Assembly (NCBI GenBank): GCA_002070105.1 | Contig: MWCQ01000015.1 | Coordinates: forward strand, 1 to 55,460 | Reading direction: 5' to 3' | DNA: 55,460 nt | Source of the DNA: Firmicutes bacterium ADurb.Bin193 | Lineage (GTDB): Bacteria; Bacillota; Clostridia; Monoglobales; Firm-18 | Shown: one piece after another, positions 1-8,803 of the stretch | How the letters are laid out: each line of letters starts with the position of its first letter | How positions within the stretch are numbered: position 1 is the stretch's first letter | The notes under the pieces: model-generated | The model's database searches: none | Seen by the model: only the letters and a program-made list of their open reading frames with translations | What the model was told of the DNA's origin: nothing | Program-made: the position numbers and the translations under genes

Positions 1-1278
1 CGCTCCGCCTATACCTTTGCCGATTGTTAATGCTTTATCGGCAAGCCATTTTTGTCCTTTGCTCGACCACCATTCATCAAACGGCTTTGCTATAACATCA
101 CCCCATAGGATTTTTATCTTTCCGCCCATGTTAGCGTTTTTGAATGCATCGGTATTTGTAATTTCAAGCAGTTTTTCTGTAAACTTTCCTAAAGCCGTTA
201 CTGCCCTTGTAGATAGGTCGTACGCAAAATCTTTTGCTCTGTCGCCTAATTTTATTAAGCCTTGCTCATTAGTATTAACAAAATCAACAACCTTGCTTAA
301 ACCGTTTTTTACGCCGTCACGCAAGCCCTCGCCCCACTTGGAGAGTATATTGATTTTAAATGCATCTTTTAATTGTTCCTTCAGCCCCTTAACTGTTAGT
401 TTTGCCGTTTTGTCCATCAGCCCGTCAAATTCCTTCATGCCATCCAAAAGGTATTTAAGCGCTTGGTCTGAACCTATTAAACCATCCTCTATCATTTTTG
501 AAGCTTTGCCTATCCCTGCATCGTCTGTTCCAAACCCTAACCCTTTCGCTATGTATGCTTTTGCTTTTATACCTGCAGAGGCTAACTGGTTAAGGTCCTG
601 TGTGTAAAGTTTTCCCTTTGATTTTATTTCTGAAAGGGCATATGTGATACGCTCCAGTCCTTCCTCGCCCTTGCCGGTCCCTGCGGTGGCATCACCTATG
701 ACTTTAAGGTCCTTTATAACATCCTCGGGCTTCCATCCCATAGCAATCATTTTTTGTGTATATGTTATTACTCCCTCGGTTTCAAATGGTGTAGCCTGCG
801 CGAATTTGTTTATATCGTTCATCATTTTTTGTGCCTTTTCAGCGGATTTAAACATGGTTTCAAAGCCTAATTGTGCATTTGTTATGCTATCCGCCAATGC
901 AATCGGTTCAAATATTGACTTTTTGGCGGCATACCCTGTAAAAATCCCGGTAACTATGCCGCGGAAACTTGTAATAAAATTATACAGGCTGCGGAGTGGT
1001 TTTGTAGCATAGTCAATGACTTTCATTGAAAAACTAAAGGTTTTCCCCGTCATATTTTTAAGCGAATTGCCCACTTTGCTTATGATTTCCGTCGCCTTAT
1101 CTCTTACAGCAAGCGTGGGATTAGCTTTTGCCCCGCTCAATGTATCCATTTGCTTTTTTGCCTTTTTTATGCTTTCGTCGAATTTATCAACCTTTTTTGT
1201 TGCTCCGTCAACGCCTTGACTTGTATTATCTACAAACCGTGCGGCAATGTCTATAACAACTACATCCGGCGATTTCAT
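1..1278 (-). CDS. Phage tail tape measure protein, N-terminal part (truncated by window edge)
   Basis: Open - strand reading frame of 426 codons running off the window. ATG at 1278 follows a weak GAGGTG site. It resembles the tape-measure N-terminal domain of long-tailed phages: about residues 120-260 carry the typical LGFETMF, FAQATPFET, KGKLYTQDLNQLASAG and DGLIGSDQALKYL stretches. Residues 80-110 are rich in basic and aromatic residues, followed by a glycine-rich hydrophobic stretch. The protein sets tail length and threads into the tail tube. The C-terminal part lies outside the window. It is directly preceded by a Rha-like regulator gene rather than by a major tail protein and tail chaperones, which is abnormal for an intact siphophage or myophage. 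Family call is confident; intactness cannot be judged. Confidence 0.8.
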   Translation of the reverse strand, partial: MKSPDVVVIDIAARFVDNTSQGVDGATKKVDKFDESIKKAKKQMDTLSGAKANPTLAVRDKATEIISKVGNSLKNMTGKTFSFSMKVIDYATKPLRSLYNFITSFRGIVTGIFTGYAAKKSIFEPIALADSITNAQLGFETMFKSAEKAQKMMNDINKFAQATPFETEGVITYTQKMIAMGWKPEDVIKDLKVIGDATAGTGKGEEGLERITYALSEIKSKGKLYTQDLNQLASAGIKAKAYIAKGLGFGTDDAGIGKASKMIEDGLIGSDQALKYLLDGMKEFDGLMDKTAKLTVKGLKEQLKDAFKINILSKWGEGLRDGVKNGLSKVVDFVNTNEQGLIKLGDRAKDFAYDLSTRAVTALGKFTEKLLEITNTDAFKNANMGGKIKILWGDVIAKPFDEWWSSKGQKWLADKALTIGKGIGGA

Positions 1279-1313
1279 AATGCATACACCTCTTTTACTT
1301 TGGATTTTTTATA

Positions 1314-1973
1314 TTATGCAGATAACTTAGCTTTGCTTTTGGCTGTGAGTGCTTTTATTTCATGATAGATATACCCCATATCAATTAATGCTATTATATG
1401 ATTTTCTGCAATGCGGACTTGATTTAATTCCCCGGTGCTCAAGAAATCACTCGCTATCGCCCTGCTGTTCGCTCCACGTTCTTTACGCAGCTGTGCAGCC
1501 GTTCTGCCTAAAGCGTTTTTATATGCAAGGTCTGTAAATTGCTTAAAAGCAAATTTTTTATGCGGACTGTCGGGTATTTTCGTATCTATTACCTCAGCAA
1601 GTGTCTTTTGTACGGGTTTTAATTCCTGCTTTGCTATCAGCCTTTCGGTTAATTCCTTCCTCATTTTGTAAAAAGCCTTTACAAGTGCCACTTTAAAGTT
1701 AACTACCGCTTCGGTATTCTTTAAGAATGTTATTAATAGAGTTGCCTGCTGCTCGTTTAGGTATATGCTTTCCTCGGGTCTGCCACCTGTACTTTCGGAC
1801 TCATATGGGACCAAAAGTCCAAACGATTCAAACGCTTTTTTATGCTTATTGATTGCCGCTTTTATTTTTTTATGCCCTATGCCTGTAAAATCTGCAATTA
1901 CTTTTGAAGTAGTCAACGGCACGGCATTAATGCTCTTATTGCTTAAAAAGACCAATTCCTTACTTGCTTTCAA
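1314..1973 (-). CDS. Rha-family phage regulatory protein
   Basis: About 219 aa if it starts at TTG 1973, where a GGGGGCGG stretch sits 4-11 nt upstream; a GTG at 2051 would lengthen it but overlaps the previous gene by 92 bp and has no ribosome site. The N-terminal half has the Rha pattern: a winged-helix-like SKVIADFTGIGHKKIKAAI, then GRPEESIYLNEQQATLL and FKVALVKAFYKMRKEL. Rha proteins are phage-encoded regulators that interfere with phage growth in some hosts; their mechanism is poorly defined. The C-terminal 90 residues are basic and unrecognised. Its location between a small-terminase-like gene and the tape measure is unusual, because Rha genes normally sit in early or lysogeny modules. 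Confidence 0.7.
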   Translation of the reverse strand: MKASKELVFLSNKSINAVPLTTSKVIADFTGIGHKKIKAAINKHKKAFESFGLLVPYESESTGGRPEESIYLNEQQATLLITFLKNTEAVVNFKVALVKAFYKMRKELTERLIAKQELKPVQKTLAEVIDTKIPDSPHKKFAFKQFTDLAYKNALGRTAAQLRKERGANSRAIASDFLSTGELNQVRIAENHIIALIDMGYIYHEIKALTAKSKAKLSA

Positions 1974-2487
1974 TATTTCCGCCCCCTTCGCTCTCTTTCT
2001 CTCTGCCGTTAGTGGGTAAGTATATTTGTACAAGCGGGGCAGTTCCCTCACGGCCGAACAGTTCGGTGCTTTCCGACGGTTCTCCGCGGCTTAGCCTTTC
2101 CAGTTTGCTTGCAACTTCTATCATTCTGCTCACGTCGTTGGGTGTCATAGCATCGTCGGGGATTGCCTGCAGTCCTTTTAATGCTTTTGTCAGCATTGCC
2201 CTTGCCGCCTTAATATGAAGCTGTGCCATTTCTTCCCGTTCTTTTTCGTTCCGCTCCCGCGCCTGCCTGTCAAGTTCTGCATCGTATTGTACGGCTCGTT
2301 CTACCCAGTTATATTTTTTGCACCATTCGGCAATAGTTGTACGGTTTTTGCATAGTTTTTGTGCAGTGCTTCTTATGCTTCTGTCCGTACCGCTATCCCT
2401 ATAATCTATAAATGCCTCAAATGCTCTTGCTGTTTCTTTTGGCAGACGTTCCCACGGTTCGGGCAAAGCGTTTTTATTCGCTGCCAT
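1960..2487 (-). CDS. Phage terminase small-subunit-like protein
   Basis: 175 aa, ATG at 2487 just after the upstream gene's stop (2491). The N-terminal 65 residues form a helix-turn-helix of the kind found in small terminases of clostridial phages (SIRSTAQKLCKNRTTIAEW, then CKKYNWVERAVQYDAEL). A charged helix follows (about 70-100), then a LERLSRGEPSEST segment that I associate with the same family. Small terminases recognise the pac/cos site and load the large ATPase/nuclease subunit. No large subunit follows; the next gene is Rha-like. It could instead be a helix-turn-helix protein of another role. The HTH is clear, the terminase assignment is moderate. Confidence 0.55.
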   Translation of the reverse strand: MAANKNALPEPWERLPKETARAFEAFIDYRDSGTDRSIRSTAQKLCKNRTTIAEWCKKYNWVERAVQYDAELDRQARERNEKEREEMAQLHIKAARAMLTKALKGLQAIPDDAMTPNDVSRMIEVASKLERLSRGEPSESTELFGREGTAPLVQIYLPTNGREKESEGGGNIESK

Positions 2488-2490
2488 AAT

Positions 2491-2886
2491 CTATGCCTCC
2501 TTGTTTAACAAATAGTCGAGAACCTTGCAAATACCCTTTAACGCCCCTTTTATTCGCTCGGTATTATATGGTGAATTACCTTCTACGCTGTCAATGGCCG
2601 CCTTTGTATTGGCGAATGTATCAAGCAACTTTTCAAGGGGTGTTTTTTCCGCATCTGCTTGTTCAGCCGCTATTATCGCCTGCCGTTCCTCTCTTAATTG
2701 CTGTTGGTGTTCCGCCTTAAGCCGTTTATATATTCTATCAAAGTCATCGGCTTCACCGGGAGCGAGTTTTGGATACATTGAAGAATAATATCCCTTTTCC
2801 TTGATAAATTCCAAAACCATGCCTTTTATGCGTTCTTCCTTCTGTGCCTTCATCTGTGCAATTTGTTCCGCTGTATACATTTCCAT
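2491..2886 (-). CDS. Phage protein of unknown function, helical
   Basis: 131 aa with ATG at 2886; AAAGGAG at 2894-2900 lies about 8-11 nt upstream, so the GTG at 2898 that overlaps this site is rejected. The sequence is highly charged and probably alpha-helical throughout (EQIAQMKAQKEERIKGM near the start; LKAEHQQQLREERQAIIAA at about 60-80). There are no cysteine motifs, signal peptide or membrane segments. I do not recognise the family. It lies between an XkdF-like protease and a small-terminase-like gene, so a structural, scaffold-like or packaging role is conceivable but unproven. Confidence 0.6.
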   Translation of the reverse strand: MEMYTAEQIAQMKAQKEERIKGMVLEFIKEKGYYSSMYPKLAPGEADDFDRIYKRLKAEHQQQLREERQAIIAAEQADAEKTPLEKLLDTFANTKAAIDSVEGNSPYNTERIKGALKGICKVLDYLLNKEA

Positions 2887-2902
2887 AATGTAAATCACTC
2901 CT

Positions 2903-3736
2903 TTAATTTTTAATAGTTAATTGTCTTACAAAACCTTCTAAAATGCCCCGCTCCGCTATCAAATCATTATAAAACTGTCTTTCTTCCGGGGTGCTTCCTT
3001 TTTGCGGCTTGCTTTTTTCTATAAGCCTTTCGAGTTCCGTAATGCGTTTTTTCAAGTTCCGCCTTACCGCCTCGGGCTTTTTGGTTTCCAAGTCATTATT
3101 TATTTCGTTTTTCAGCTTGGTCCTAAGGCGTTTATATCTGTCTGTTCGTGTCTGAGCAATTCCGACTTGCTTATTACCTTTTGTAATAATGCGGGTTTTA
3201 TCGCTGTATATAAACCCTTGCGAGGCGGTTGGCTTGCTGTCGGTAATTACAAGCGGTGTTTTGTTTCCGCCTATGATAACGGTTTTACCCTTGCATACCC
3301 CGCTATATACTTGCTTAAATCCTTTTGCAATGCCGTTATTTGGCTTGCCGACTGTTTGGCGGACTGCCTCGCCCTCAATGCTGAACATATTGTATTCACC
3401 GCTTTTTACCTTTTCCCAAACGTCGGCATCGGTAATTTTAAAACCTATCCACCAACCTTGAGGAGTTACAGCGGGGTCAAAGCCCATAGCCTCGATTTTA
3501 TCAGCTGTATATACAACGCTTTCAACAAGTACCGCTACGTCGCTTTTTTTGTGCATTTCGCCCCCGCTCCTGTGGTGCAATACAAAATTGTATGCCGCTT
3601 CCTCGAGGTCTGATATGTCTATAATATCGTCCTGCCAGTCCTGTATAACCTCGCCGTTTGCTCTTGTTGAAATGTTTGCCCAACCAAAGGCAAGCTGTTT
3701 TTCCTCGTTTATTTTTCTGATTTTTACCGGGTTCAT
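2903..3736 (-). CDS. XkdF-like phage prohead serine protease
   Basis: 277 aa. Residues 8-130 match the XkdF / Peptidase_S78_2 type of putative phage serine protease: LAFGWANIS, QDDIIDISDLEEAAYNFV, the histidine-containing GGEMHKK, VLVESVVYT, GWWIGFKITDADVWEKVKSG and MFSIEGEA. Such proteins mature the capsid and usually lie between portal and major capsid genes. The C-terminal part (about 190-270) is a basic helical region with a K/E-rich repeat. ATG at 3736 is the natural family start. Here the protease precedes the small-terminase-like gene and neither portal nor capsid follows, so it is out of its normal context. Family assignment good; function in this element uncertain. Confidence 0.72.
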   Translation of the reverse strand: MNPVKIRKINEEKQLAFGWANISTRANGEVIQDWQDDIIDISDLEEAAYNFVLHHRSGGEMHKKSDVAVLVESVVYTADKIEAMGFDPAVTPQGWWIGFKITDADVWEKVKSGEYNMFSIEGEAVRQTVGKPNNGIAKGFKQVYSGVCKGKTVIIGGNKTPLVITDSKPTASQGFIYSDKTRIITKGNKQVGIAQTRTDRYKRLRTKLKNEINNDLETKKPEAVRRNLKKRITELERLIEKSKPQKGSTPEERQFYNDLIAERGILEGFVRQLTIKN

Positions 3737-3752
3737 TGTGTTGCCTCGCTTT

Positions 3753-4052
3753 CTATGGCAAATTTAATATTGTTGCAACCTTGCAAATAAAACGGTACCG
3801 TGCTTTGGTATAATAGTTACTGTGCTTTTTTATGACCAGTTTCACATCTTCCCATGTTCTTTTTTGAAAATCTATTATAACAACTGCCTTTACGCCGTCT
3901 GGGTTGTCTTTCTCTGCTTCCTGCAGTGCCTGCCTTACAGCTTGTACCTTTGCTTGTTCATTGGGTTGTAGGTAATGTTTTTGTGATAATACAGGGTATT
4001 CCTGTAATATGCTTACAACATAATCATACCAAATAGGGCGGTTCTTACTCAT
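3753..4052 (-). CDS. ArpU/RinA-like phage late transcription regulator (tentative)
   Basis: 99 aa, ATG at 4052 with GGGGAG 7 nt upstream; a longer in-frame start at 4163 overlaps the sigma factor gene and is rejected. It begins inside the last codons of the sigma-factor gene (8-bp overlap), implying translational coupling. The protein has the layout of small ArpU/RinA/DUF1492-type activators: a YPVLSQKHYL helix, a central loop, then VVIIDFQKRTWEDVKLVIKK and TKARYRFICKVATIL, resembling a sigma-region-4-like helix pair ending in a hydrophobic R-F-x-x-x-V-A signature. Such proteins switch on phage late genes. No stronger motif is visible. Confidence 0.5.
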   Translation of the reverse strand: MSKNRPIWYDYVVSILQEYPVLSQKHYLQPNEQAKVQAVRQALQEAEKDNPDGVKAVVIIDFQKRTWEDVKLVIKKHSNYYTKARYRFICKVATILNLP

Positions 4053-4686
4053 ATGCTCCCCGCCTCTCTTGGTAAAACTTATGGAGCGGGGCTGTGCTTT
4101 CCGTTTTCTTTCGCAATTCTTTAATAGCGGTTTTTTCCAGTTGCCTTGCCTTTTCCAATGCAACGCCCATTATGTCGGCGGTATTCTCGACATTATATCC
4201 GTCATAATATCTTAGCTGAATTGCCTGCTGTTGGCTTGGAGTCAATGCCTTTTTAAGTGTGGAGCGGAGAAGGATTTTTATTTCCAAATATTCAAGATTG
4301 TTTAAAACATTATCAATCTCTGCAGCTGCTGCCGGGTCCGCTATAAGGTCTATACCTTCCGTAGGTTCGTTGGCCGCCAAAGGTGCATTAAGCGTTGTTA
4401 AGTCATCTTTGTTCTTGTCGTTATTCCGTAATTTTAAAATATAGCCAATCAAGCATTTATAAAAGTATGTAATGAATTTTGCGCCCTTTGTATCGTCATA
4501 GTCATTTGCCGCCTTAACCAGTGCGAAATATGCTTCTTGCCGTAGGTCATCATGCTCATATTGTAATGCAGGGGCGTATCTGTTAATAACCTTATGAATT
4601 ATGCCAATGTTTTGCTTATAAAGCTGTTCCATTGCCTGTGTGTCGCCGTTTTTTGCTCTGTGTATCAATCTTTCGTTGGTTTCCAT
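4045..4686 (-). CDS. Phage-encoded sigma-70 family RNA polymerase sigma factor
   Basis: 213 aa. Region 2 covers about residues 5-90 (RLIHRAKNGDTQAMEQLY, then YEHDDLRQEAYFALVKAA and KGAKFITYFYKCLIGYIL, the core-binding and -10 recognition helices). Region 4 covers about 145-195 (LTPSQQQAIQLRYYDGYNV, then TADIMGVALEKARQLEK). Region 3 is missing, as in short alternative sigma factors. It probably directs the phage's own transcription of downstream genes together with the overlapping ArpU-like gene. AGGAGG lies about 12 nt before ATG 4686. Immediately upstream on the opposite strand is a consensus promoter for a candidate small RNA. Confidence 0.82.
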   Translation of the reverse strand: METNERLIHRAKNGDTQAMEQLYKQNIGIIHKVINRYAPALQYEHDDLRQEAYFALVKAANDYDDTKGAKFITYFYKCLIGYILKLRNNDKNKDDLTTLNAPLAANEPTEGIDLIADPAAAAEIDNVLNNLEYLEIKILLRSTLKKALTPSQQQAIQLRYYDGYNVENTADIMGVALEKARQLEKTAIKELRKKTESTAPLHKFYQERRGAYE

Positions 4687-4716
4687 TTGACAAGCCGACC
4701 TCCTCTATGATATAAT
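4687..4716 (+). promoter_or_regulatory. Consensus sigma-A promoter firing away from the sigma-factor gene
   Basis: TTGACA (4687-4692), 18-nt spacer, TATAAT (4711-4716). Both hexamers match consensus exactly. It points to the + strand, where no coding region follows; the transcript would start near 4723 and meet an intrinsic terminator at 4753-4791. This is the basis for the ncRNA call. Confidence 0.6.
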
Positions 4717-4722
4717 TTACAT

Positions 4723-4791
4723 AAAGTGGTCGCCCCTTCATTGTTGGAAAAGTACCTTTTTAATCTTTTGCGGTTAGAAAGGTATTTTTTT
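4723..4791 (+). ncRNA. Candidate short phage-encoded RNA (about 70 nt; about 125 nt if read through)
   Basis: Region bounded by the consensus promoter at 4687-4716 and the hairpin plus seven T at 4753-4791. There is no ORF with a ribosome site. The first 30 nt (AAGTGGTCGCCCCTTC...) are unpaired, C-rich and could be a seed. A second terminator at 4808-4847 would catch read-through. I do not recognise a known RNA family. The call rests on promoter-terminator spacing alone. Confidence 0.45.
4753..4791 (+). terminator. Intrinsic terminator of the candidate phage sRNA
   Basis: Arms 4753-4763 and 4774-4784 pair over 11 bp with one G-U and a 10-nt loop, followed by seven T (4785-4791). Read on the - strand no good T-tract follows, so it is directional to +. 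Confidence 0.6.
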
Positions 4792-4807
4792 GCTTTGATG
4801 TCTTTCT

Positions 4808-4847
4808 GCTGTCAATTGTCAGCGATTTGCTGACAGCTGTTTTTTTT
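4808..4847 (+). terminator. Second terminator-like hairpin with competing stems
   Basis: GCTGTCA (4808-4814) pairs with TGACAGC (4831-4837), while TGTCAGC (4817-4823) can instead pair with GCTGACA (4829-4835); eight T follow at 4840-4847. The two stems are mutually exclusive in part, which is the arrangement of an attenuator, though it may simply be a backup terminator. Confidence 0.45.
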
Positions 4848-4880
4848 GCATCTCTCCGTGCAGTAATATTATATTGTTTT

Positions 4881-5297
4881 TTAATCATTAACATTATCAG
4901 TTACATTATCAGTTACATTATCAGTTACATTATCAGTTACATTATCAGTTACATTATCAGTTACATTATCAGTTATTTTTGTTATACTATCTATAACACC
5001 GTTATTTTTGTTATCATCTTCTATAACACTGTTATTCTTCCCCCAGCGACTTGCCATGCCCTTTTTCCCGGCTTCGCTACGCTTTTTTACTTCCAACTCC
5101 CATTTTTCATTATCCCTATCCAAAGCCGATTTTATGAATGAAAACGCCATATTTAAAACCCGGTCGGCAAAAGCAGGAATTTCACCCGTGGAGCTATAGT
5201 TAAAAATTGCGCGAAATAGCTTTCCGAATTCCTCATCAGTAAGCTCCTTGCAATATTCCATGTAGTCATTATAAACGACAAAACTATTTTTTGGCAT
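4881..5297 (-). CDS. DUF6291-type phage replication-associated protein with TDNV repeat tail
   Basis: 138 aa. Residues 1-90 match the conserved N-terminal domain found on clostridial phage replication proteins (NSFVVYNDYMEYCKELTDEEF, AIFNYSSTGEIPAF, FSFIKSALDRDNEKW, KRSEAGKKGM, SRWG). The C-terminus is seven exact copies of Thr-Asp-Asn-Val, encoded by a 12-bp tandem repeat, ending VND. In relatives such Asn/Val repeats are linkers to a further domain; here the protein stops in the repeat, so it may be a truncated form that has lost its C-terminal domain. It lies downstream of the excisionase-like genes, as an early gene. Confidence 0.65.
   Translation of the reverse strand: MPKNSFVVYNDYMEYCKELTDEEFGKLFRAIFNYSSTGEIPAFADRVLNMAFSFIKSALDRDNEKWELEVKKRSEAGKKGMASRWGKNNSVIEDDNKNNGVIDSITKITDNVTDNVTDNVTDNVTDNVTDNVTDNVND
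4891..4974. repeat. 12-bp tandem repeat, seven exact copies, inside a coding region
   Basis: Unit ACATTATCAGTT on the + strand repeats seven times without a mismatch across 84 bp. It encodes (TDNV)7 in the DUF6291-type gene. Exact identity of all copies points to recent slippage expansion. Unit length keeps the frame. Confidence 0.95.
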
Positions 5298-5304
5298 TCA
5301 ACAC

Positions 5305-5559
5305 CTACCTCCCGACCGCTATTTTGCGAATGACTCCTATATGCTGTTCCTGCAGCGGAGCAGGGGGAGCAGGAGCGTAGTCGCCACTTAAAAAGGCTTG
5401 AAGTTTGTCTACATCGACCAGTCGTTTCGATGCCACCTCTACGCACGGGAATTTACCAGTCGCCACCAATTGCCTAAGCCCGGATATGGTTAGTGCTGTT
5501 AGTGGGTCGGCAGCTTTTATTTCTCTCACAGCCTGTGGTATTGTTCTTATTTTGCACAT
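5305..5559 (-). CDS. Small helix-turn-helix phage DNA-binding protein
   Basis: 84 aa, ATG 5559, overlapping the previous gene's end by 13 bp (translational coupling). It has the layout of an excisionase-like winged HTH: MCKIRTIPQAVREIKAADP, TISGLRQLVATGKFPCVEV, then SKRLVDVDKLQAFL. Proteins with this start are widespread in clostridial prophages and bind DNA as small regulators or recombination directionality factors. The tail is proline-rich. Exact target unknown. Confidence 0.65.
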   Translation of the reverse strand: MCKIRTIPQAVREIKAADPLTALTISGLRQLVATGKFPCVEVASKRLVDVDKLQAFLSGDYAPAPPAPLQEQHIGVIRKIAVGR

Positions 5560-5774
5560 TCAATCTCACCTGCCTTTGTTGTAATTGTTTGAGAGTTTAA
5601 CCATTTAAAAAAATTCTCTTTGGTAACTACAATTTTCCTACCTATTCTTTTGCTTTGCATATCCGGGTGATACAAAATATTATAAGCAGTTGGTCTGCTA
5701 AAACCAAGTTTTTGTATATCCTTCGCAGTAATTAGCAATGGCAATTCTTCTTTGTTTATAATTTTCGAGTTCAT
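5547..5774 (-). CDS. Excisionase-like helix-turn-helix protein, first early gene
   Basis: 75 aa, ATG 5774 preceded by AGGAGG. The HTH runs from about residue 13 to 60 (LLITAKDIQKLGFSRPTAY, RIGRKIVVTKENFFKWLN), the MerR/Xis-type architecture seen in excisionases and in small phage regulators. As the first gene of the leftward transcript opposite the repressor it corresponds to the xis/cro position of temperate elements. It may drive excision together with the integrase at 7139, or repress the repressor promoter. Confidence 0.65.
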   Translation of the reverse strand: MNSKIINKEELPLLITAKDIQKLGFSRPTAYNILYHPDMQSKRIGRKIVVTKENFFKWLNSQTITTKAGEIECAK

Positions 5775-5798
5775 GCTTCAACCTCCTTATTATCCATT

Positions 5799-5884
5799 CG
5801 AGTATATTTTATATTATAACACTCGTTTGAAATATTGTCAATGCTTTTGAGTAAATATATTAAAATGTATTGCAATTGAGTAAA
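5799..5884. promoter_or_regulatory. Putative operators of the lysis-lysogeny switch
   Basis: Two exact TTGAGTAAA motifs (5847-5855, 5876-5884), a CGAGTATA variant at 5799-5806 and an inverted ACTCG at 5821-5825 share an ACTC core spaced about 22-29 bp. One overlaps the -35/spacer of the repressor promoter, another sits between the two divergent promoters. They are plausible binding sites of the CI-like repressor; this is inference from motif placement. Confidence 0.5.
5813..5841 (-). promoter_or_regulatory. Early leftward phage promoter (xis/replication operon)
   Basis: On the - strand TTGACA (5841-5836), 17-nt spacer, TATAAT (5818-5813): a perfect consensus promoter directed at the gene starting at 5774. 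Confidence 0.8.
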
Positions 5885-5898
5885 AAATAGTGTATACT
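5870..5898 (+). promoter_or_regulatory. Repressor promoter (rightward)
   Basis: TTGCAA (5870-5875), 17-nt spacer, TATACT (5893-5898), about 23 nt before the repressor ATG at 5921. An operator-like TTGAGTAAA lies inside the spacer, which would allow autoregulation. Confidence 0.7.
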
Positions 5899-5920
5899 AC
5901 ATAATGAAAGGGTGATATGA

Positions 5921-6478
5921 ATGTTAGCAAAAAGAATAAAGGAATTAAGAGTTCAAAAAGGATTAACGCAACAAAAATTTGCTGAAATGATGAGCCTTGG
6001 CATTACTGCAGTAAACAATTACGAGAATGGAAATCGAACACCTTCTGCAGATACAGTCATTAAAATGGCTAAGTTTTTTGGTGTTCCATCTGATTATTTA
6101 TTGGGACTAAGCGATATTAAAAGTTTTGATATTGAAAATATGTCTATTAATAAAAAGCTCGGTCTTACACAAAGCGCAATTAATAAGCTAAAGAAGATAA
6201 ATGCAGAAGGCCTTGATTTCGAAAAAAAGTCATTAAATACTTTGAATTTAATTATAGATAATATGAGGTTTGAAGAATTTTTATATTATGCGACGGCATA
6301 TGCTTTTCCCAAAAGCGATGTGTCCATTAATTGTAAAAAATCTATTGACTTGACTAAAGCAAAATTATTAAATATGCAAGAGGATGATTTTAAAGAATAT
6401 TTTTTACTCCAACTAACACAAAACCTATTACACGACATATTATTTGATATTGAACACGAATACCCAAAGAATGATTAA
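5921..6478 (+). CDS. XRE-family CI-like phage repressor
   Basis: 185 aa. Residues 1-62 are a classic XRE helix-turn-helix (IKELRVQKGLTQQKFAEMM, GITAVNNYENGNRTPSADTV, KFFGVPSDYLLGLSD). The remaining 120 residues are helical and do not resemble a LexA/CI autoprotease: no Ser-Lys catalytic region is seen. Release of repression may therefore not be by RecA-stimulated self-cleavage. It is transcribed divergently from the xis-like gene and in the same direction as the membrane protein and integrase genes, the usual lysogeny module. The gene is clearly AT-richer than the chromosomal neighbours, consistent with acquired DNA. Confidence 0.85.
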   Translation: MLAKRIKELRVQKGLTQQKFAEMMSLGITAVNNYENGNRTPSADTVIKMAKFFGVPSDYLLGLSDIKSFDIENMSINKKLGLTQSAINKLKKINAEGLDFEKKSLNTLNLIIDNMRFEEFLYYATAYAFPKSDVSINCKKSIDLTKAKLLNMQEDDFKEYFLLQLTQNLLHDILFDIEHEYPKND

Positions 6479-6504
6479 TTTTTTTTATAAAAGGGGGCTG
6501 TCAA

Positions 6505-7071
6505 ATGAGTTACTACAAAACCTTCAAAGATGATTTCCTTATCAAAGTAATCACTTGCGGGGAATATACCCAACAGAACATTGACGACGCAATAGCGGAA
6601 GCCAAAAGGCGGGGCTTAAATGTTGACGGCTATTTGAAGTACGCACACCCGGCAGACGGTCAAGGAAAGGATTTGTTTTCAATAAAAGGGTTTAAGCTGC
6701 CATCTTCGCCTTGGCAGGCTGTTTCTATGGCATTGGTAATAGTGGGAATATTCAAGATTTTTATGGTATATCCGGGCTTAGGGTTGGTTTTATTTGCTCT
6801 TGGTGCAGGTGTGGCGTGGGCGTTCATAGAAGATAAGGCAAAAAGCAAGCCTGCCGGAGCGGTCGTCTGTCCTTACTGCGGTAGTAAAAACATTCAAATA
6901 GTTAATGAAACGCATATCAAAAAAAGGGGCTGTTTGGGTAACCTCATACATTTTATGATATTCTTCTTTGTTTGGTGGATATGGATTTTCGTATGGCTGT
7001 TTACGGGTAAAAAGACTGTGAACAAAACAAAGGCCGTATGCCTTGACTGTGGTAAGCAATGGTATATTTAA
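6505..7071 (+). CDS. Membrane protein with a zinc ribbon split by a transmembrane segment
   Basis: 188 aa, ATG 6505 with GGGGGC upstream. The N-terminal 65 residues are soluble. Residues 70-108 form one or two membrane segments, a CPYCG half-ribbon lies at 122-126, a very aromatic membrane segment at 147-166 (FFFVWWIWIFVWLF), and the second half CLDCG at 179-183. If both segments span the membrane, the two CxxC pairs may lie on the same side and form one ribbon. I do not recognise a named family. Its place between repressor and integrase, the lysogenic-conversion position, suggests a gene expressed in the lysogen, possibly for superinfection exclusion; this is inference only. Confidence 0.65.
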   Translation: MSYYKTFKDDFLIKVITCGEYTQQNIDDAIAEAKRRGLNVDGYLKYAHPADGQGKDLFSIKGFKLPSSPWQAVSMALVIVGIFKIFMVYPGLGLVLFALGAGVAWAFIEDKAKSKPAGAVVCPYCGSKNIQIVNETHIKKRGCLGNLIHFMIFFFVWWIWIFVWLFTGKKTVNKTKAVCLDCGKQWYI

Positions 7072-7138
7072 TAATACCAACGTGATATAACGTTAAATCA
7101 CATTAAATCACTATGTTTAACAAAGGACGGTGAGCAAA

Positions 7139-8566
7139 TTGGCAACAATCAGAGAACGAGGCGGAGCGTATCAAATAAGGGTATCGCTTGGCTACAATAT
7201 GCAAGGCAAACAAATATCAAAAACAATGACCTATACCCCCGCTCCCGGAATGACAAAAAAGCAGATTGAGAAGGAAGTAAACAGGCAGGCAACTTTATTT
7301 GAGGAAAAATGCAAAAACGGCTTTGTGTTGGACGGTTCTACCCGGTTTGCTGATTATGCTTTGAAATGGCTTGAAATAAACGAGGGAAACCTCGCCCCTA
7401 AAACCTATATACGGTATAATTCGCTGCTTGATAGAATAAAACCCGCTATCGGGCATATCAAGTTGGAAAATTTGCAAGCACACCACCTGCAGGAATTTTA
7501 TAACAATCTTGCTGAGGACGGCATTATAAATTTAAAGCCAAAGGCAGCGGGGAAAAACTTAGGGGAGTATCTCAAGAAAAACAAAATCACAAAGGCGGAT
7601 ATATCAAGCAAGACTAAAATAGCCACATCAACCATTAAAGCGGCCTGTGACGGCAAAAATATATTACTTGAAAAAGCCGAGGCTATAGCCAAAGCATTGG
7701 GCGTGAATTTCAGCGATGTATTTACTGTCTGTAATAACAATGGCGCCGGCCTTTCAGAAAAGAGCATATTGCACCATCACCGACTAATAAGCGTAATTTT
7801 AGGCAGTGCGTATAAGCAAGGGTATGTTTTCCGCAATGTTTCCACCCTTGCAACCCCTCCAAAAGTCAAGCAAAAAGATGTTGATTTTCTCGACGAAAAA
7901 GAGGCATTATCATTATGTGAAGCATTAAGAGGCGCGCCGATTAAATGGAAAACTGCGCTACTATTGCTTTTATATACAGGTATGCGCCGGGGTGAACTTG
8001 TAGGGCTTGAATGGTCGGACATAGATTTTAAAAACAATCTCATTCACATTAAAAGAACCGTCCAATATGTGGTAGGCACAAAATACGAATATACAGACGA
8101 AAACGGAGTATTTCATAAGGGCAGGCTGATAGAGAAAGAGCCAAAGACAAAAAGCAGTATACGATATATTTCCGTTGATGACGGGGTAATGTATTTGTTA
8201 AACGATTATAAAAAATGGTGGCTGGAGCAGAAGCTATTAAACGGTGATAGGTGGGTAAAGACGAACAAAATCTTTATTAAAGAAAACGGCGGGGTTATGC
8301 ACCCGGATAGCATAACGGAATATACAAAGAAATTTGTTAAACAAAACAACCTGCCGCACTTTACGCCTCACAGCCTTAGGCATACTAATATTAGTATTAT
8401 GATAGCCAACGGGGTGGATATTAAAACCGTATCGGCTCGGGCAGGACATTCAAATATAACGACTACAGGGAATATATATACTCACCAAATACAAAGCGCC
8501 AACGCAAAAGCAGCAGACAAGATAGGGAATATATTCAGCAAAATACAAAAAGAGAAACAAGCATAA
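7139..8566 (+). CDS. Tyrosine integrase with an XRE-like HTH inserted in its core-binding domain
   Basis: 475 aa from TTG 7139 (MATIRERGGAYQIRVSLGY, the family's usual opening), with an AAAGGACGGTGAG ribosome site; GTG 7130 is too close to that site. Domain order: arm-binding N-terminus (1-60); SAM-like core-binding domain (about 68-135); an inserted helix-turn-helix of about 58 residues (140-197; LGEYLKKNK, ISSKTKIATSTI, EKAEAIAKALGVNFSDVF); the rest of the core-binding domain; catalytic domain with Arg283 (TGMRRGEL), His411 and Arg414 (HSLRH), His437 (GHSN) and nucleophile Tyr447 (GNIYTH). All catalytic residues are present, so it should be active. It catalyses site-specific integration/excision, here next to the tRNA-fMet 3' end. 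Confidence 0.93.
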   Translation: MATIRERGGAYQIRVSLGYNMQGKQISKTMTYTPAPGMTKKQIEKEVNRQATLFEEKCKNGFVLDGSTRFADYALKWLEINEGNLAPKTYIRYNSLLDRIKPAIGHIKLENLQAHHLQEFYNNLAEDGIINLKPKAAGKNLGEYLKKNKITKADISSKTKIATSTIKAACDGKNILLEKAEAIAKALGVNFSDVFTVCNNNGAGLSEKSILHHHRLISVILGSAYKQGYVFRNVSTLATPPKVKQKDVDFLDEKEALSLCEALRGAPIKWKTALLLLLYTGMRRGELVGLEWSDIDFKNNLIHIKRTVQYVVGTKYEYTDENGVFHKGRLIEKEPKTKSSIRYISVDDGVMYLLNDYKKWWLEQKLLNGDRWVKTNKIFIKENGGVMHPDSITEYTKKFVKQNNLPHFTPHSLRHTNISIMIANGVDIKTVSARAGHSNITTTGNIYTHQIQSANAKAADKIGNIFSKIQKEKQA

Positions 8567-8597
8567 AAAGCTAAAATTTTATTATTTTTTTGCCCAA

Positions 8598-8619
8598 TAA
8601 AGGACAAATAAAGGACAAA
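8598..8619 (+). repeat. Tandem 11-bp direct repeats, putative integrase arm sites
   Basis: TAAAGGACAAA occurs twice head-to-tail (8598-8608, 8609-8619) between the integrase stop and the tRNA gene. A related ACAAAGGAC stands just before the integrase start (7120-7128). Short direct repeats at this place are commonly arm-type integrase binding sites. Function is inferred from position. Confidence 0.45.
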
Positions 8620-8650
8620 GGGCATTTTTAATTTAATATACCCAAAAAGT

Positions 8651-8687
8651 AAAAACACCGTAAACCCTTATGGCTACGGTGTTTTTT
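8651..8687. terminator. Bidirectional terminator between integrase and tRNA-fMet
   Basis: AAAAACACCGTA (8651-8662) pairs with TACGGTGTTTTT (8675-8686), giving a 12-bp stem with A-tract and T-tract on both sides. It can end the integrase transcript (+) and the tRNA transcript (-). Confidence 0.8.
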
Positions 8688-8689
8688 AT

Positions 8690-8766
<77 letters not shown>

Positions 8767-8803
8767 ACATCTTTTTATCGCCGTATTTTTTAGGCGCTTA
8801 ATT

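Follow-up and report, generated by a model that had tools for sequence, protein, structure and literature searches.

We identified a predicted short antisense RNA encoded opposite the leader of a phage sigma factor gene, with a sigma-A-type promoter placed directly at the sigma start codon, and found that the same arrangement recurs at other phage sigma genes. The analysis started from 55,460 nt of contig MWCQ01000015.1 of Firmicutes bacterium ADurb.Bin193 (the whole stretch is referred to as the window, and coordinates are those of the window unless a locus is named). The recurring start-codon arrangement probably gates the timing of sigma expression; the existence of the RNA has not been shown. 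As to the mode of action, we put forward, at about even confidence, that a recurrent short sigma-A-driven cis-antisense RNA gates the phage sigma factor as a brake or threshold, with transcription, action in cis, the sign of the effect and the role of RNase III all being inferred. If true, this would be a general way in which temperate phages of Clostridia silence, and then release, a committing and potentially toxic sigma factor. It would also mean that a noncoding RNA without sequence conservation can be recognized by its place and geometry. The original prediction had proposed a phage small RNA at this site; it missed that the RNA is antisense to the sigma leader, that the Shine-Dalgarno sequence (SD) of the sigma gene is hidden in a leader hairpin and that the arrangement recurs across phage sigma genes.

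The TTGACA-N18-TATAAT promoter on which that prediction was built is present on the + strand (4687-4716). TTGACA at 4687-4692 and TATAAT at 4711-4716, separated by an 18-nt spacer, match the consensus at 12 of 12 positions, and TG at 4708-4709, one base 5′ of TATAAT, provides an extended -10. The -35 element, which begins at 4687, directly adjoins the sigma start codon (4686-4684), and promoters at the same position are found in relatives. Based on 300 and 2000 dinucleotide shuffles, perfect promoters with spacers of 16-18 nt are expected by chance 0.047 times in the whole window, where four are observed, and 0.009 times in the prophage part (1-8692), where there are two, namely 4687-4716 (+) and an early promoter at 5841-5813 (-). 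The whole genome contains 89 such matches versus none for the reversed pattern. The 18-nt spacer occurs in just six of the 89 (manual count), an off-spacing control with spacers of 19-45 nt returned 72 matches (~2.7 per spacer length), and four of the five other perfect N18 matches overlap ORFs of at least 80 aa. Since N18 spacers are rare, off-spacing matches occur and most of the other N18 matches lie inside ORFs, an N18 match alone is weak evidence. The TG and the intergenic location strengthen the promoter assignment here. That this promoter would be among the strongest of the element in the lysogen, as was also proposed, is plausible and has not been shown.

Downstream of the promoter there are two hairpins. 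The first (hairpin 1, 4746-4791, +) had been described as an 11-bp hairpin with seven T; the hairpin and its T7 run (4785-4791) exist, whereas the stem is really 19-20 bp long and partly includes the T7 run. Hairpin 1 has one 6-nt loop and a fold z-score of -5.8, and it ranks 5th by hairpin energy among the 134 T-runs (at least six T) of the window. It resembles an intrinsic terminator on the + strand only; no sense-strand terminator was found. Hairpin 2 (4813-4847, +), with T8 at 4840-4847 and a stem of 8 bp (10 with an internal mismatch), indeed has the competing stems noted originally, with arms 4808-4814/4831-4837 as the alternative to 4817-4823/4829-4835. It ranks 13th of the 134 T-runs by hairpin energy, and its fold alone is nothing unusual compared with shuffled sequences (z -1.2).

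Placing the RNA start ~7 nt past the -10 element and the end of the short form at T7 defines a predicted RNA of ~69 nt (4723-4791, +), and read-through of hairpin 1 to T8 would give a longer form of ~125 nt (4723-4847, +). The short form (folded as 4723-4792) has a z-score of -4.3, and a 127-nt RNA (4723-4849) has a z-score of -5.2, with 0 of 200 shuffles equally low. A search of the whole window against Rfam returned nothing at gathering score except a tRNA, and in 4600-4950 at E-values up to 5 the best match was PyrR, with 22.2 bits versus the 54 required. The region had been considered noncoding, and we agree, as it contains only unsupported ORFs: a GTG-initiated 35-aa ORF (4726-4833, +), which would be leaderless, 3 nt from the predicted transcription start, and minus-strand ORFs of 41 and 44 aa. 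In the absence of transcript data, the claim of a phage small RNA that has a strong promoter and ends at intrinsic terminators is upheld as a prediction from sequence, as are two properties of cis-antisense phage RNAs, namely, full complementarity to the target and possession of a promoter and a terminator of its own.

The presumed target is a 213-aa phage sigma factor (4045-4686, -) with Sigma70 r2 and r4 regions (phrog_351, E 2e-37). Upstream of it, in the early operon, lies a gene for a 138-aa replication-type DUF6291 protein (4881-5297, -). The 194-nt gap between the two genes houses the antisense unit: 4723-4847 (+) falls wholly opposite the leader, between sigma (which ends at 4686) and DUF6291 (which starts at 4881). 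Lying in this gap on the opposite strand, the unit therefore encodes an RNA antisense to the leader of sigma. The early operon has its own promoter, TTGACA-N17-TATAAT (5813-5841, -), matching the consensus at 12 of 12 positions. As the promoter scan listed no minus-strand promoter between 4881 and 4686, transcription of sigma presumably comes by read-through from the early operon.

At the level of DNA sequence, we found no homologues of the region in 100 genomes of relatives, 51 genomes of the order or 391 of the class (each set including the genome itself), nor in phages and plasmids. None of the 50 other genomes of the order has the region, except for one 26-bp chance match. Short DNA hits (G043, G037 and nine other genomes), where inspected, were chance matches or a tandem repeat. 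One hit (L002) lies inside an ORF that we take to be a D-alanyl-D-alanine carboxypeptidase-like gene, and the hits in L168 and L170, once read, look unrelated. IMG/VR scans with the window sigma, 107-aa and 84-aa proteins gave no relatives, and the exact 24-nt piece of hairpin 2 was not found in IMG/VR. The 76 loci with DUF6291 relatives, of which 25 were inspected, point to replication loci and not to the sigma leader. Searches via the integrase and sigma did reveal relatives of the element that share its gene order (integrase, repressor, 84-aa protein, sigma).

The sigma relatives share the layout of the locus and are unrelated in sequence, so the expected conservation of promoter and hairpin in relatives is borne out for the architecture and not for the sequence. 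In locus L175, for example, the strand opposite the sigma start carries TTGACA-N17-TATCCT with TG beside the start codon, followed by a terminator hairpin. Scanning IMG/VR with aligned sigma proteins produced 27 loci, in which antisense promoters at the start codon match the consensus at 12 of 12 positions in L196, L199 and L213 and at 11 of 12 in L197. A first test, requiring at least 11 of 12 matches, was passed by 5 of 45 sigma loci; among the controls, 11 of 9000 random positions passed it and none of the starts of 209 other ORFs. We then defined a promoter at the start as at least 10 of 12 matches, or 9 of 12 with TG. By this definition it is present at 8 of the 26 non-redundant sigma loci (window plus IMG/VR) and, in a set collected separately from genomes, at 6 of 15 loci. 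Of the 291 SD-defined control starts, which belong to other phage genes in the IMG/VR sigma loci and in the other phage loci, only 1 has it (Fisher p 6e-9, or 6e-8 when the window is left out; 3e-8 for the genome set). A promoter together with an antisense terminator, counted if 50-165 nt upstream, occurs at 7 of 26 and 6 of 15 sigma loci and at none of the 291 control starts. Perfect promoters (12/12) are found at four window plus IMG/VR loci and one genome locus, and among the 45 SD-defined starts of the window the sigma gene alone has both promoter and terminator. In all, 14 loci with short leaders carry the start-codon antisense promoter. Terminators in these leaders are antisense only, with a sense terminator in 0 of 14. 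A sense sigma-A-like site (at least 9/12) within 250 nt is absent in 12 of the 14, and, apart from A/T-rich words, the only sense motif that the leaders share is ATTATA, which is complementary to the antisense -10. The sigma proteins themselves are mostly 22-39% identical, the exceptions being the pairs L192/L193 (64%) and L222/L223 (88%).

Several choices define these counts. The genome set was collected with a protein alignment (A3) and cut, by judgement, at E ~1e-36, where housekeeping sigma factors start. Since A3 was built from eight promoter-bearing sigma proteins, the search may favour their kin; the promoter DNA that was tested played no part in it. Three genome loci (L233, L234 and L236) coincide with loci that had been returned earlier (L008, L009 and L010) and were promoter-untested until then. 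Duplicates (L175, identical to L192; L202; L218; L113) and L224, in which no start was found, were dropped, and L235 was reassigned to the RpoD-type group. For divergent sigma genes, the start was placed by alignment. For comparison we relied on the SD-defined controls, as RpoD-type loci represent internal positions and not true gene starts.

The arrangement is by no means universal. The promoter test is failed by 18 of 26 and 9 of 15 sigma loci, and it is passed by none of the 17 annotated-phage loci and neither of the two syntenic genome loci (L112 and L114). The trait does not cluster on the sigma tree, where it requires 10 changes, with 286 of 500 shuffles as low. Such scatter may reflect either repeated loss and gain or a trait that often falls under the threshold. 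A case of the latter kind is L223: it fails by its -35, TTGTAG, yet -10, terminator and SD hairpin are all present. This locus was treated as lacking the promoter in the counts and leader models and as having it in the tree. As a separate observation, L213 has an ORF of 107 aa (3541-3861 of that locus, -) past the terminator on the antisense strand, with a hydrophobic start (MTNYIGSILGMIVGSLTISFIIYAI) and with a TATAAT and an SD-like sequence of its own.

The sigma mRNA leader of the window folds into an 18-bp hairpin (4688-4740, -) of -20.9 kcal/mol (z -5.2, with none of 200 shuffles this low), which is 14th by z-score among the 561 of 5540 62-nt windows whose MFE is -17 or lower. The sigma SD, AGAGGAGG (4699-4706, -), lies in the 3′ arm of the hairpin, 12 nt before the ATG; the 5′ arm (4740-4720) is mostly under the antisense RNA, and the loop (4719-4710) is complementary to the antisense -10. 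In the folding model, the mean unpaired probability of the SD is 0.25-0.33 in the free leader versus 0.56-0.65 with the antisense target covered. Covering 4723-4792 lifts it from 0.25 to 0.56; covering just 4733-4792 or 4750-4848 leaves SD pairing unchanged. The gap between the inverted-repeat arms is 10 nt in the window and differs among relatives; judged by eye, such variation suits an RNA loop better than the dimer site of a DNA operator, which we had considered as an alternative to the RNA hairpin. The leader also contains the start of the 41-aa minus-strand ORF (4741-4616), which runs out of frame across the sigma SD and start codon, and an AUG-UAA start-stop at 4722-4717 within the hairpin; translational coupling through either of them is possible.

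The same features were modelled across loci, with L233 omitted because its leader is too close to the contig end. The SD is unpaired with a probability of 0.12 in leaders with the antisense promoter (n=13) compared with 0.41 in those without it (n=21, p 3e-4), and the leader fold z-scores are -2.35 and -0.66, respectively (p 0.008). For the genome set alone, SD hiding does not differ significantly (5 versus 9 leaders, p 0.22). When the antisense target is covered in the models, SD access rises by 0.36 on average and by at least 0.12 in 11 of 13 leaders, L200 and L213 being the two misfits with no rise. The same covering of the 21 leaders without the promoter changes access by -0.03 (p 1.3e-4 for the difference), and control blocks on the next 70 nt upstream and on the coding start result in mean changes of 0.03 and 0.02. 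In all 13 modelled leaders the predicted antisense start lies 29-44 nt before the AUG and the SD at -12 to -20. Because of this constant position, the 5′ arm falls within the RNA and the SD outside it. Simple SD masking can be excluded, as the predicted RNA covers neither the SD nor the AUG in any of the 13 leaders.

How, then, might the RNA act? According to the brake model, host sigma-A polymerase would start at the near-perfect promoter touching the sigma start codon and make an RNA of ~70 (or 125) nt complementary to the sigma leader, with the terminators stopping transcription before the upstream gene. On the sigma mRNA, which would come from read-through of the early operon, the antisense target would be the 5′ arm of the hairpin that holds the SD. 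In the lysogen and during early induction, the antisense promoter would stop stray sense transcripts from giving sigma, both by polymerase blocking and collision and by duplex formation leading to RNase III cleavage or to loss of a ribosome standby site, which would lie next to the hidden SD. Strong induction, followed by capture of polymerase by the phage sigma, would override the brake. The main rival reverses the sign: by pairing with the 5′ arm, the RNA would free the SD and turn on sigma translation, and, once the phage sigma displaced sigma-A, the antisense RNA would fade and the sigma gene would be off again. We regard activation as possible, but clearly the less probable of the two signs. 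The folding models favour it, in that binding is predicted to free the SD: access increases in the 11 of 13 leaders mentioned above, and the predicted RNA always takes the 5′ arm and leaves the SD free. However, these are folding models only, L200 and L213 do not conform, a constitutive promoter opposing the very gene that it activates would be costly, and long perfect duplexes usually invite RNase III. A brake is the more likely sign, although the sign itself is unproven; our preference rests on the constitutive-type promoter facing incoming early transcription and on precedents that repress, namely, the SigN antisense transcripts, aQ, OOP, sar and IstR-1. Should activation nevertheless prove correct, we would be dealing with a riboregulator that activates phage sigma genes, is widespread in Clostridia and their phages and ties sigma synthesis to the amount of free host sigma-A, a conclusion that we can offer only tentatively.

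The remaining explanations give the antisense RNA a lesser role, a different one or none. The SD hairpin by itself might silence read-through mRNA, with translatable sigma mRNA made from a phage-specific late promoter inside the hairpin, as for T4 gene e, and the antisense unit contributing only interference or being incidental. The significant SD hairpin of the window is consistent with this, and the 12 of 14 leaders lacking a sigma-A-like sense promoter leave room for a promoter of another type. There is also precedent in T4, where the SDs of gene e, soc, 49 and I-TevI are sequestered in read-through transcripts, cases that the available part of the source describes without an antisense RNA, unlike the window (PMC3014915). 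On the other hand, 14 start-codon antisense promoters with matching terminators would remain unexplained, and the leaders share no sense motif apart from the A/T-rich words and ATTATA; we therefore consider this explanation improbable as a whole, while SD hiding of the T4 kind could coexist with an antisense gate. A role in trans, in which the 5′ C-rich segment pairs with other mRNAs, such as that of the prophage's own CI-like repressor, and favours induction, seems more doubtful still. The predicted duplex with the repressor SD (gene start at 5921; 5890-5925, +) has an energy of -19.5 kcal/mol, second among 57 gene starts, and only 0.25% of 2000 shuffled seeds are equally good. Yet the top rank belongs to a host gene, equally good pairing is found for 1.7% of 9236 random windows, pairing with the different repressor of G328, a genome with a near-identical prophage, is weaker (-12.8), and what relatives retain is the position opposite sigma and not the sequence. 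Finally, there may be no functional RNA at all, only a chance promoter in a decaying prophage. Perfect N18 matches do occur elsewhere within ORFs, and the prophage seems to be without replication genes present in relatives, but the expectation of 0.009 per prophage part and the recurrence in two sigma sets, with a single case among the 291 controls, make this the least credible reading.

In phage P22, sar RNA maps to the 5′ end of a regulatory gene transcribed by read-through from the gene before it. The predicted RNA of the window is likewise a short antisense RNA at the 5′ end of a read-through regulatory gene. As far as the accessible part of the source goes, sar is a phage antisense RNA of 68/69 nt, and lambda provides two further examples, aQ, which opposes the late-gene activator Q, and OOP, a 77-nt cis RNA (PMC12197685). 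Unlike the RNA of the window, which leaves the SD and AUG uncovered, sar is described as pairing with the ant mRNA and inhibiting its synthesis. Similarity to aQ and OOP consists in being antisense to a phage development gene; however, aQ is ~220 nt long and has a promoter referred to as CII-dependent, whereas the window RNA is ~70 nt, has a consensus sigma-A promoter and targets a sigma leader. IstR-1, one of the divergent type I antitoxin RNAs, is reported, in the portion of the source available, to repress the tisB mRNA, whose SD is hidden, without touching the SD (PMC4147584). Here too the RNA is complementary to the 5′ UTR upstream of a hidden SD, off the start site; the differences are that in the IstR-1 system the target is a toxin mRNA and just 21 nt pair, while in the window the target is a sigma factor. 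For the same reason, namely, that the target is a 213-aa sigma factor and not a small toxic peptide, we rejected a type I toxin-antitoxin RNA. A parallel regarding the target is sigN on the plasmid/prophage-like pBS32 of Bacillus subtilis, where antisense transcripts raise the expression threshold of the mobile-element sigma factor SigN, a mode of control that its authors, in the part of the article available, call perhaps a first (PMC10601692). In the window, the geometry is that of an antisense RNA opposing a mobile-element sigma gene, its transcription being a prediction. The SigN promoters, however, are located downstream and read back through sigN, whereas the window promoter lies on the start codon and reads away from the gene, and its RNA is short, terminated and confined to the leader. 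The SigN-type arrangement with downstream antisense promoters is not matched in the window, where the 3′ side of sigma was covered by the promoter scan only. Antisense RNAs to phage genes are known, and the literature searched contains one case (SigN) in which a sigma gene is under antisense control. We did not encounter in it a recurrent, terminated antisense RNA on the start codons of phage sigma genes; as this literature leaves out most subscription journals, absence is unproven. The antisense RNAs cannot be aligned in sequence, which left no basis for covariance models.

The prophage itself shows signs of both loss and transfer. Its DUF6291 protein has 138 aa, compared with 183-289 aa in most of the 25 inspected relatives, and L114 and L175 have ~2.5 kb of extra genes between the DUF6291 or 84-aa gene and sigma. 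Judging by these differences, the prophage probably once lost replication genes between DUF6291 and sigma. A prophage in G328 (JAAZFB01), another species with host DNA only ~71% identical, is 99.5% identical to the window over 67-4349 and 98.9% over 6504-8770. It is present as two pieces, L117 (C505) and L127 (C221), with no contig spanning the antisense region, and its repressor gene (L127 73-636) differs from that of the window; we interpret the comparison as a recent transfer with the immunity region exchanged. An ORF at 7186-8388 of L117 is presumably an IS256-like transposase. A tRNA gene (8693-8766, -) adjoins the integrase gene of the window and is likely the attachment site, as the stretch shared with G328 ends there (8770), with a different host gene beside it. 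The 3′ end of the DUF6291 gene contains a perfect 12-bp tandem repeat, ACATTATCAGTT, in seven copies (4891-4975), which encodes a TDNV-type tail of the protein. A 20-nt double unit of this repeat occurs in one copy in nine DUF6291 relatives, and the repeat could be either a set of origin iterons or a linker grown by slippage.
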